This document shows positions 3,615 to 7,385 of a DNA stretch of 64,000 bases, piece after piece. The notes beneath the pieces are model-generated. The model was not told where the DNA came from, ran no database searches, and saw only the letters and a program-made list of their open reading frames with translations. How positions within the stretch are numbered: the first letter of the stretch is position 1; every line of letters begins with the position of its first letter. Source of the DNA: Alphaproteobacteria bacterium (lineage in GTDB: Bacteria > Pseudomonadota > Alphaproteobacteria > ATCC43930 > CGMCC-115725); assembly GCA_028871055.1 (NCBI GenBank), contig JAGWON010000004.1, positions 1-64,000 of the forward strand. The letters are read 5' to 3'. A program made the translations under genes and the position numbers.

Positions 3615-4613
3615 TCAGCGCACTTCCTTGCTGGCGCGCAGCTGACGGCCGGCGCGCAAAGCGCGCCGCCCCTCGGTTCCCTGCCACACGAGCAAGGCCG
3701 GCACGCCGATGGTCAGGTCGCGGCCACGCTTCAACAGCGACAGCGCCAGCGCGATCTCGGGCGACAGGCCGAACAGCGCGCCGAGCACGACGTAGGCGCC
3801 TTCCTGCACGCCGACGGCGTTGGGGACGAAGAAGGCAAAGCTGCGCAGCGCATAGAGCAGGCTCTCGATGGTCAGCACGGCGCCGATGCCCAAGGGCACG
3901 CCCATGAGGTGGAGCGCGATCCAGGCCTCGATGCCGTTGGCGAACCAGCCGGCGAGATGGAGGACGAAGCCGAGCTGCGGGCCGACCATCCGCATATACA
4001 TCATGTGGATGTGATGGTTGAGTGCACGCGTATGCTCAGCCGCGTCCGGCAGCCAGCGCGGCGCAAGCCGTTCCGCCAGACGCTCGACCACGCCCATGCC
4101 GCGCCGCTGCACGAAGATGAAGGCGAAAACGGCGAAGACGGCGACGATCAGCCCGACGCCCAGCGACTTGGCGATCGCAGCATTGGGACGAAACCAGACC
4201 AGCAGGCCGAGGCCGACCGCGGCGTAGACGAGCTGCGCCAGCGTCTCGAGGGTGACGTCGACGACGGTCGAGGCTAAGGACAGGGTTCCCGGCAGGCCGG
4301 CGATCGTGACGGCGCGCGCGCCCATGGCGAAGCCGCCGAGCTGCGACAGCGGCAGCACCTCGGCGCCGGCATCGCGCACGATCCGGCCCCAGATCAGCGC
4401 GCCGGGACCGACCGATCGCGGCGGCGGCAGCACCGTGTACCACGCGACGCCCAGCAGCCCGAGCAGCCCGAGGTGGTACAGGCAGACGACGGCGAAGCCG
4501 CTCCAGCGGATCGCGCGCAGCGCGCTCCACACGTCGCCGAAGCCGTAATAGCCGACGATGAAGGTGCCGAGCAGCAATCCGAGGATTGCCGCGACGATGC
4601 TGACGATCCGCAT
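3615..4613 (-). CDS. hpnL: HpnL-like polytopic membrane protein (LPG synthase/YbhN transmembrane family)
   Basis: About 332 residues, with multiple hydrophobic helices throughout. The C-terminal block (RSFAFFVPNAVGVQEGAYV, then a GLSPEIALALSLLKRGRD-like run and VPALLVWQ) and the central STVVDVTLETLAQLVYA match the HpnL branch of the lysylphosphatidylglycerol synthase transmembrane family, linked to hopanoid lipid biology. The start at 4613 is chosen because its ATG overlaps the upstream stop as TGATG; an upstream in-frame start at 4640 would lie inside the previous gene. No other hopanoid gene is in the window, so the HpnL name rests on sequence resemblance only. Confidence 0.75.
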   Translation of the reverse strand: MRIVSIVAAILGLLLGTFIVGYYGFGDVWSALRAIRWSGFAVVCLYHLGLLGLLGVAWYTVLPPPRSVGPGALIWGRIVRDAGAEVLPLSQLGGFAMGARAVTIAGLPGTLSLASTVVDVTLETLAQLVYAAVGLGLLVWFRPNAAIAKSLGVGLIVAVFAVFAFIFVQRRGMGVVERLAERLAPRWLPDAAEHTRALNHHIHMMYMRMVGPQLGFVLHLAGWFANGIEAWIALHLMGVPLGIGAVLTIESLLYALRSFAFFVPNAVGVQEGAYVVLGALFGLSPEIALALSLLKRGRDLTIGVPALLVWQGTEGRRALRAGRQLRASKEVR

Positions 4614-6358
4614 CACGCCGGATCGCGGCGAAAGCTCCACAGCCGCAGGCTGGAGAGCGCGACGTCGGCAAGCTTCGGCAAAAAGCTGGGCCGCAGCAGG
4701 CCTTGGTCGAATTCCTTCATGCGGCGGGCGTTCTCGCCGTAGCAGTCCTCGAGGAAGCGGCGGAAGGTGAAGCCTTCGAGGAAGACACTGGCCTGCGTCG
4801 CCGAGAAATCCTTGCCGTCGTTCCGTTGCGCGCCGCGCCGCGCGGTGCCGACCAGACGCTTCAACGCGCGGTAATAGTAACGCAGGCTGGTCAGGCCGCG
4901 CCGCCAGGCCGAGGCCCGGCCGCGTCGCGCCTCGTTGTAGGCCATCCAGTTGACGAAGAAGACGATGTGGCGCGTCTCCTCGTACATCAGCGTCTCGAAG
5001 ATCGCGAACATGGAGTCCGGCAGGAACCCGGCCTCATGCGCGATCTTGAACACGCCGAATCCCAAGAAGGAGTCGACGCATTCGCCGAAGCCGAAATCCT
5101 TGAACGCGGTCACGATGTCGTCGGGCAGTTTGTCGAGCGGGTGCTCCTGCACGTCGATGCCGTAGCGCCGGATCATCACCCGGATGAGTTCGGCGTGGCG
5201 CGCCTCCTCGAAGCCTTGCAGCGCGATCGCCTCCTTGAGCACCGGATCATCGACCGTCTCGGTGAACTGCTTGACGATGGCGCCGGCGCGCAGCTCGGTG
5301 TGCAGCACCTCCTGCCAGAACGGCACCCCACGCAGGCGGGCGAGCGCCGCGTCGTCGAGTTCCGGCCACGGCAGCGTCTCGGGCTCATAATCCTGATAGG
5401 TCGCCTTGAAGTGCTGGCAGAACAGGTCGCGATGCGCCGCGCTGCCGAGCTCGACCGTCTTCTTTCCGCCACGCATGAAGCGCCGTGCGAACCGCACCAG
5501 CCGCGGCACGACAGTCGGCCGCAGCAGGCGCGGATCGTAGCCGGCAAGTCGCCGGTCGTTCTCGGCGAGGCAGAGGTCCATGAGCTCCGCCGCCGGGAGC
5601 TCGACGCCGACCGACTTGCTGCCGGTCACGGTGAAGTTGTTGTCGGCGTCGGGCGCGCCGCCGATGCCGCGGGCGATGCCGATGCGCTCCCAGATCAGGA
5701 ACGCCCACACGCCGAGCACCTTGAGCGCGAACCACGGCCGCCGCCACCACTTCATGTTGCGCTTGTGCCAGGCGACCCAGTTGACGAAGAAGAGGATGTG
5801 CCGGCCTTCCTCCTGCATCACCGGCTCGAAGGTGTCGACCAGCGCGGGCGGAAAATAACCCGAGCGCTTGGCGACCTCGAACAGGCCGAAGGCGAAGAAG
5901 CTGTCGATGCATTCGCTGTATCCGGTGACCATGAAGGCCCATTCCGGATCGCGTGGCGTGAGATAGGGCGGCTCCGCCGCGAGCTTGATGCCGTAGGCCT
6001 GCACCATGTTGGCAAGCACCTCCTTGTGCCGGCCTTCCTCGAAGCCGTTGAGGTCGATCGCCTCCTTGAGGAGCTCGTCGGACACGGTCTTGCCGTAGGT
6101 CACGACGCGGAGCCGCGCCTTGCCCTCGGTCTGCACGGCGATGTCCCAGATCGGCAGCGAGACCAGCCGCTCGCGCGCGTCAGGGTCGAGCTTCGGCCAG
6201 TCGATCACCGCCGGCTTGTAGGGATCGAAGGTGTCGAGCAGCATTCGGCAGAACAGTGTCTTGTGCTGCTCGCTACCGGGGCGGACAGGCCCCGGCCCGC
6301 CTTCCTGGCCGCGCCAGATCCGTGCCGCGCGGTCGGCGTCTGCGACCGATGAATCCAC
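4613..6358 (-). CDS. tandem-duplicated ferritin-like (di-iron type) protein
   Basis: A 581-residue protein made of two homologous halves offset by about 277 residues. HKTLFC (32-37) matches HRDLFC (309-314); GFEEGRH (105-111) matches GFEEARH (382-388); EEGRHILFFVNW (183-194) matches EETRHIVFFVNW (460-471). Each half carries a Glu (78; 355), an E-x-x-H (108/111; 385/388), another Glu (149; 426) and a second E-x-x-H (184/187; 461/464), the ligand pattern of four-helix di-iron proteins. The residues are seen; iron binding is inferred and the reaction unknown. The start is GTG with GGGA 7 bases upstream. The stop overlaps the HpnL-like start, so the two are translationally coupled. Confidence 0.85.
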   Translation of the reverse strand: MDSSVADADRAARIWRGQEGGPGPVRPGSEQHKTLFCRMLLDTFDPYKPAVIDWPKLDPDARERLVSLPIWDIAVQTEGKARLRVVTYGKTVSDELLKEAIDLNGFEEGRHKEVLANMVQAYGIKLAAEPPYLTPRDPEWAFMVTGYSECIDSFFAFGLFEVAKRSGYFPPALVDTFEPVMQEEGRHILFFVNWVAWHKRNMKWWRRPWFALKVLGVWAFLIWERIGIARGIGGAPDADNNFTVTGSKSVGVELPAAELMDLCLAENDRRLAGYDPRLLRPTVVPRLVRFARRFMRGGKKTVELGSAAHRDLFCQHFKATYQDYEPETLPWPELDDAALARLRGVPFWQEVLHTELRAGAIVKQFTETVDDPVLKEAIALQGFEEARHAELIRVMIRRYGIDVQEHPLDKLPDDIVTAFKDFGFGECVDSFLGFGVFKIAHEAGFLPDSMFAIFETLMYEETRHIVFFVNWMAYNEARRGRASAWRRGLTSLRYYYRALKRLVGTARRGAQRNDGKDFSATQASVFLEGFTFRRFLEDCYGENARRMKEFDQGLLRPSFLPKLADVALSSLRLWSFRRDPA

Positions 6359-6458
6359 CGAAGGTCCCTTTCCTTAGACCGCCGCGGTCATATTACCCAA
6401 ACCCGAGACCGGACATGAGCCAAATCGCCGCGCCGGAGCCGCTCTCGCTGGGCCCGAA

Positions 6459-7385
6459 TCAGCGCGCCGCCGGTGCCGCGCCGGCTGTTGCGGCGGTGGT
6501 CCGGCGGTCGGCGCGAATGTGCTCGAGATAGGCCACGATGTCGCGCCGCGCATTCGCCTCGAGCACCTTGATCGGCATTTTGTTGCCCGGCACGAGGGCC
6601 TGCGGGTCGGCCAGCCAGCGGTCGAGATTGGCGACGGTCCAGGCGAGACTCGCGTGCCGCAACGCCGGCGAATACGGATAGCCCGGCGCGCTGCCGGCGG
6701 CACGGTCGAACACGGTGCCGAGCGGCGGCCCGATCTTCACGCGGTCGAGCGCATGACATCCCGAGCAGCGCTCAGCGAAGAGCTTCGCGCCCCGCACCGG
6801 ATCGGGCGGCGCGTTCGGGTCGAAGCGCGATAGGTTCTCGATATCGTCGGGCTTCTCGGCGCGGAAGAAGGTGTAGGACAACGTGATCGTGTCGACATCC
6901 TTGGCTTCGGGATCCTTGTCGAGCGCCGGATCGACGAAGAAGTCGACCGGCATGGTCACGGTCTTGCCGGGCGCCAGCAGCTCGTCGCTGAAGCAGAAGC
7001 ACTGGATCTTGTCGAAATAGAGACCGATCTTGGCCGGCGTCACGTTGAAGGTGGCATGGCCCACGGTCGGCGTGGTGCCGGTATTGGTGGCGGAGAAATA
7101 GACGAGCTTCTCCTCGCCGAGATGGACCTTGACCGATTCCTGGAGCGGGGCGAAGCGCCACGGCAAATCGGGGGCGACCGACGTGCTGAAGCGGACGGTG
7201 ACGACGCGGCGCGAGATCGTGCCGGCGTCGGCCACCACGCGCTGCGTCGTGCCGTTATAGCCGGTCGCGGCGCAGAACAGGCGATAGAGCGGCACCGAGA
7301 ACGCGACCAGCGTCAGCATCGCGACGAGGATGCCGCCCAGCACGACGACCGTTCGCACGTTGCGCTGTCTGCGACCTGCGGCCAT
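6459..7385 (-). CDS. ctaG: Cox11/CtaG copper chaperone fused to a C-terminal cytochrome c domain
   Basis: Residues 1-190 are a complete Cox11, the membrane-anchored copper chaperone for the CuB site of cytochrome c oxidase: one N-terminal transmembrane helix (about 12-31), the conserved LFCAATGYNGTTQ with Cys38, and the copper motif KIQCFCF with Cys129 and Cys131. From about 192 a class I cytochrome c domain follows without interruption: GAKLFAERCSGCHALD gives the haem site (Cys207, Cys210, His211), and Met270 in GNKMP is the likely sixth ligand. Normal Cox11 is about 190-200 residues, so this is a true extra domain. No other cytochrome oxidase gene is adjacent. The ATG at 7385 is the only reasonable start. 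Confidence 0.9.
   Translation of the reverse strand: MAAGRRQRNVRTVVVLGGILVAMLTLVAFSVPLYRLFCAATGYNGTTQRVVADAGTISRRVVTVRFSTSVAPDLPWRFAPLQESVKVHLGEEKLVYFSATNTGTTPTVGHATFNVTPAKIGLYFDKIQCFCFSDELLAPGKTVTMPVDFFVDPALDKDPEAKDVDTITLSYTFFRAEKPDDIENLSRFDPNAPPDPVRGAKLFAERCSGCHALDRVKIGPPLGTVFDRAAGSAPGYPYSPALRHASLAWTVANLDRWLADPQALVPGNKMPIKVLEANARRDIVAYLEHIRADRRTTAATAGAAPAAR

Follow-up and report, generated by a model that had tools for sequence, protein, structure and literature searches.

A rare fusion of the copper chaperone Cox11 to a class I cytochrome c and its possible role in the assembly of cytochrome oxidase

Why would a copper chaperone for cytochrome oxidase carry an electron carrier of its own? 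The question is raised by a single open reading frame at 6459..7385 on the minus strand of the window (the whole stretch of 64,000 nucleotides analyzed here), which encodes 308 amino acids from its ATG without an internal stop. The original prediction, made from the sequence alone, had read this frame as Cox11 running directly into a class I cytochrome c. Both ends and the uninterrupted frame were borne out exactly, the strand being the only detail to be added, and the residues that it had named (Cys38 and the CFC motif at 129 to 131 in Cox11, CSGCH at 207 to 211 and Met270 in the cytochrome) are all found where it had placed them. Matches to Pfam, NCBIfam and the PDB, together with full-length orthologues, identify the gene as a Cox11-cytochrome c fusion.

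At the N terminus, a basic segment precedes a transmembrane helix at residues 12 to 32 (7290..7352; this and all following features lie on the minus strand). The best 19-residue hydropathy value, 2.68, starts at residue 13, and an AlphaFold2 model features a helix from residue 2 to 41, with low confidence beyond residue 30. As in other Cox11/CtaG proteins, this single N-terminal helix would leave the Cox11 domain in the periplasm. Residues 30 to 175 (6861..7298) cover the complete Pfam CtaG_Cox11 profile (PF04442, 1 to 148 of 148; 185 bits against a cutoff of 25; E value, 1.1e-54), exceed the NCBIfam Cox11 equivalog cutoff (200.2 against 162) and match 1so9 in Foldseek (E value, 9.9e-12). The domain holds both the membrane-proximal third cysteine of Cox11, Cys38 (7272..7274), located after the membrane helix, and the predicted Cu(I)-binding motif Cys129-Phe-Cys131 (6993..7001). 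All three cysteines are invariant in 11 homologues, and the predicted ligands of the Cu(I) dimer (Cu2S4) of Cox11 are present in the fused protein.

The C-terminal part, residues 198 to 289 (6519..6794), is a class I cytochrome c domain according to Pfam (Cytochrom_C, PF00034, profile positions 3 to 88 of 90; 32.7 bits against a cutoff of 21.3) and to PDB sequence and fold matches, with Foldseek TM-scores of about 0.8 to cytochromes c. The CSGCH at 207 to 211 (6753..6767) is the predicted haem c attachment motif with the proximal histidine, and Met270 (6576..6578), which aligns with the PGTKM region of cytochrome c, is the predicted distal ligand. In the 11 homologues Cys207, Cys210, His211 and Met270 are invariant, the only variation being in the two residues inside CxxCH. 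Genes of the CcmC/CcmF type for haem c are present in the window's genome. A linker of about 20 residues (176 to 197; 6795..6860), seen in the alignment and of low pLDDT in the model, connects the two domains and conserves L185, R187, F188 and P194. The AlphaFold2 model, built from the 11 homologues (mean pLDDT, 73.7; pTM, 0.61), separates cleanly into one part that resembles the solved Cox11 structure 1so9 and another that resembles cytochromes c in Foldseek; since it is a monomer with low confidence at about residues 177 to 188 of the linker, it does not fix the placement of the haem relative to the copper site. Likewise, the PDB sequence search returned 1so9 (E value, 1e-45) and otherwise only class I cytochromes c (down to 2e-15).

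The search for this architecture in other genomes, which had been suggested along with the prediction, found it in 11 of the 39 genomes of the host's family, in four genera, and the whole protein is also present, at 58 to 84% identity, in five named metagenome-assembled genomes of the species collection. Because the whole protein recurs in independent genomes, it is neither a chance reading frame, which the domain scores also exclude, nor an assembly or sequencing join between two genes, the artifact against which the original prediction had warned. Beyond the family, non-exhaustive sampling of the class (385 genomes) and of the phylum (398 genomes) yielded a single further full-length match, G517, from a second alphaproteobacterial family (f171), which marks the architecture as rare among the sampled genomes for a search that is sensitive to related cytochromes and that fusions with an unrelated cytochrome would escape. 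In G365, from a third family (f16), the Cox11 and cytochrome parts lie on either side of a run of N, an assembly gap that fits a fusion without proving it. A candidate second fused type in G736 turned out to be an ordinary soluble cytochrome c. The fusion is therefore confirmed as real, rare and conserved.

Does the Cox11 part still look like a working chaperone? All 12 fused proteins retain 32 of the 38 alignment columns that are at least 95% conserved in nonfused Cox11, every cysteine included. Two differences between fused and unfused proteins are consistent: Glu135 (6981..6983), located three residues past CFCF, is constant in all fused proteins where 96% of the other compared Cox11 sequences have glutamine, and His110 (7056..7058) is likewise constant where threonine or glutamine is usual. 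However, the same pair occurs in an unfused orphan Cox11 from Aurantimonas sp. VKM B-3413 (L053), so it is not specific to the cytochrome, and position 135 is not universal either, since S. meliloti CtaG has threonine there. In the Aurantimonas locus (5827-7164), the gene lies immediately upstream of a PCuAC gene, so the pair may mark PCuAC-linked Cox11 instead of the cytochrome fusion.

The genomic surroundings of the fused gene also point toward copper. It lies outside the cox operon, away from the slot between ctaB and COX3 that holds the operon's ctaG. In all eight family genomes outside the window's genus, Sco and/or PCuAC genes are found directly upstream on the same strand. Where both are present, the order is Sco-PCuAC-fused gene, and the genes often overlap or are separated by a few bases, as illustrated by the 4-bp overlap in G030 and the 1-bp gap in G031 between the fused gene and the chaperone gene upstream of it. 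Sco and PCuAC are both established as copper chaperones for cytochrome oxidase. The fused gene of the window itself stands alone, next to a downstream gene (4613..6358) for a 581-amino-acid protein whose two halves are 36% identical and which matches no Pfam family at an E value of 1e-3. The same duplicated protein is the neighbor in both other carriers of the genus, and adjacency in these three genomes is its only link to the fused gene; its conserved ExxRH-type motifs allow the guess of a ferritin-like diiron fold.

If the fused protein is a chaperone, which oxidase does it serve? On contig C16, the window's genome (G000) holds a canonical operon, COX2-COX1-ctaB-ctaG-COX3. This genome thus encodes a canonical and a fused Cox11 and yet only one heme-copper oxidase, and the single COX1-family match and single COX2 match leave a chaperone for a second oxidase unsupported. 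With a canonical Cox11 beside the only oxidase, the fused copy may be superfluous in this genome. A canonical Cox11 also accompanies the fused gene in G034, G020, G029 and G517, in the last case within a canonical cox operon; G029 has one operon with an empty ctaG slot and another with an unfused Cox11. Three of the eight family genomes outside the window's genus, G031, G032 and G037 (rated 70%, 100% and 100% complete, respectively), have the order COX1-ctaB-small ORF (about 45 codons)-COX3 without ctaG, and the fused protein is the only Cox11 found. Given that CtaG is essential for the aa3 oxidase in Caulobacter and that its loss is not bypassed by added copper (PMC12617631), it is most likely the fused protein that takes this role in these three. 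Still, an empty slot alone is no proof of replacement: G036, from the window's genus, G026 and G009 (assemblies 95 to 98% complete) have an empty ctaG slot in their A1 cox operons (L132, L137 and L144) and no Cox11 detected genome-wide, reflecting either another route to CuB or genes missing from the assemblies. Even in an operon as strongly conserved as this one, the ctaG slot can thus become empty while the fused copy persists elsewhere in a Sco-PCuAC cluster.

Next, we considered how the fusion arose and whether its cytochrome is maintained. The 13 fused cytochrome domains, including that of G365, group as a single clade (support, 100/98) apart from the other cytochromes c in the comparison; the fusion thus has one origin. 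The Cox11 parts cluster too, but this cluster includes the gap-cut G365 copy (L186) and, on a long branch, the Aurantimonas protein, which may be related to the fused clade without being fused itself. The simplest history suggested by these trees would be one fusion event followed by inheritance within the family, with a probable transfer of the fused gene between families. No intermediate state, with a separate cytochrome gene beside an unfused sister Cox11, was found; the sisters lie in ordinary cox operons. In five of six close pairs, dN/dS is about 0.08 to 0.18 in both domains (0.31 in the sixth), and in the linker it is 0.03 to 0.2 in most pairs, values that place Cox11, cytochrome and linker alike under purifying selection; selection is relaxed in the last 18 residues. 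The low dN/dS of the cytochrome indicates that the domain is maintained, and together with the invariance of its ligands it excludes a degenerate passenger.

The original prediction had left room for the architecture being already well described, and in the open-licence PubMed Central papers searched we found no description of a Cox11-cytochrome c fusion. Fusions described there include CtaA-CtaB, as well as COX2-cytochrome c and b-c1 (PMC4013037). With Cox11/CtaG proteins (S. meliloti CtaG, the protein of structure 1so9, and the Cox11 of R. sphaeroides and P. denitrificans), the fused protein shares the transmembrane anchor, the Ig-like periplasmic domain, the third cysteine, the CFC motif, the equivalog score and the conserved core; it differs in its C-terminal cytochrome, its location outside the cox operon and its His110 and Glu135. 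The nearest precedent, likewise joining an assembly factor for an oxidase copper site to a c-type cytochrome, is a Sco-cytochrome c fusion of Pseudomonas putida, reportedly described by Banci et al. in 2011 (J Biol Inorg Chem 16:391, as cited in PMC3817396) with a proposed role in electron transfer. Sco, however, has a thioredoxin fold and acts mainly on CuA, whereas Cox11 has an unrelated fold and acts on CuB. Here the chaperone part is Cox11, and any linked Sco is encoded by a separate gene. The cytochrome domain has the CxxCH, the methionine ligand and the fold of class I cytochromes c and c2 (Methylobacterium cytochrome cH, Rhodopila c2, mitochondrial c) but lacks a signal peptide of its own and is tethered to the C-terminal side of Cox11. 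In membrane-anchored cytochrome cy and the subunit II-cytochrome c of caa3 oxidases, a cytochrome c is also kept at the oxidase by an anchor; in their case the anchor is either a simple helix or a subunit of the oxidase, and here it is a copper chaperone.

What, then, could the tethered haem do? The copper that Cox11 handles is Cu(I). With its single high-potential electron, a His/Met cytochrome c can in principle reduce thiolate-bound Cu(II), whereas reduction of a protein disulfide takes two electrons at low potential, for which such a cytochrome is a poor reductant. Of the two roles offered by the original prediction, reduction of copper would therefore fit a His/Met cytochrome and reduction of the cysteine ligands would fit it badly, and this chemistry leads us to favor a donation of electrons to copper or to the haem a3-CuB site as it forms; in the main rival reading, the recipient is CuA. 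The architecture, the intact ligands, the single origin, the purifying selection, the chaperone operons and the pattern of replacement are the basis for a reading to which we give about even chances, namely, that the protein functions as a CuB chaperone and that its tethered cytochrome relays single electrons to copper or to CuB/haem a3; we infer the copper transfer, the haem attachment and the direction of electron flow. According to this proposal, a membrane-anchored Cox11/CtaG with a class I cytochrome c at its periplasmic C terminus would bind Cu(I) with its CFC motif and pass it to CuB of the aa3 oxidase, having taken over from the operon-encoded CtaG in some relatives. The Ccm system would haemylate the cytochrome, the normal respiratory chain (bc1 or a soluble cytochrome c) would reduce it, and the one-electron relay would hold copper as Cu(I), or reduce CuB/haem a3, during loading and insertion. 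It is tempting to go one step further and to suppose, although we lean somewhat against it, that CuB assembly is redox-gated, with the chaperone's own cytochrome reducing copper or the nascent haem a3-CuB site at the moment of insertion; the delivery of copper would then be linked to the flow of electrons through the respiratory chain. The route of copper to the buried CuB, its oxidation state on arrival and the source of any electron are open questions, several of which are listed as unanswered in the literature (PMC6696091). Where the fused protein is apparently the sole Cox11, its covalently tethered and optically visible carrier would make a redox step at CuB directly testable.

Alternatively, the cytochrome might dock at subunit II and feed CuA and haem a, not Cox11's copper, with the Cox11 part holding it beside a new oxidase for a first turnover or for quality control. 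Sequence and fold matches indeed place the domain with the c2/mitochondrial cytochromes, the type that donates electrons to aa3 oxidases, and human COX11 associates with freshly synthesized COX2 (PMC9232578). We nevertheless consider this rather unlikely, as the linkage to Sco and PCuAC genes speaks for metal loading and most of the mitochondrial docking-face lysines near the methionine ligand are absent from the fused cytochrome by our reading of the sequence; its net charge of 0 to +6, compared with +4 for the soluble cytochrome of the window's genome, is compatible with docking but does not discriminate. It is also conceivable that no electrons pass to the copper site and that the fusion serves coexpression, anchoring of the cytochrome, stability or dimerization, given that respiratory cytochromes are commonly found fused to membrane proteins (PMC4013037) and that a canonical chaperone coexists in the five genomes named above. 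Conservation of the full haem ligation and of the linker across four genera, and purifying selection on the cytochrome equal to that on the chaperone, make this an improbable explanation. That the cytochrome keeps the Cox11 cysteines reduced in place of Cox19 or TlpA seems very improbable, because its single high-potential electron suits a disulfide poorly and bacterial monomeric Cox11 is reported to have no intramolecular disulfide (PMC9232578), even though the mitochondrial Cox11 cysteines are redox controlled (PMC9232578) and Bradyrhizobium TlpA reduces Sco and CoxB (PMC6696091). The preferred reading remains the electron relay to copper or CuB/haem a3.

A few further observations were made at related loci. 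In G517 (L202, 8116-12359), the fused gene lies between genes for a Crp-type regulator and a glycosyltransferase of family 20, without Sco or PCuAC. Plasmid pMVF16-3 of Microvirga sp. VF16 (L088) carries a Cox11-like gene away from a cox operon, with neighbors that we named by eye as ccdA-like, thioredoxin-like and Rieske-type genes, and G011 holds a second, divergent orphan Cox11 (L108, 9101-9679) in addition to its canonical copy. Finally, a small ORF of about 40 to 50 codons (MDERQKRQRSRNRALL...FYVLAMVR) is conserved between ctaB and ctaG/COX3 in the cox operons of the family, at L093 820-946, L127 6500-6700, L143 5790-5965 and equivalent positions.
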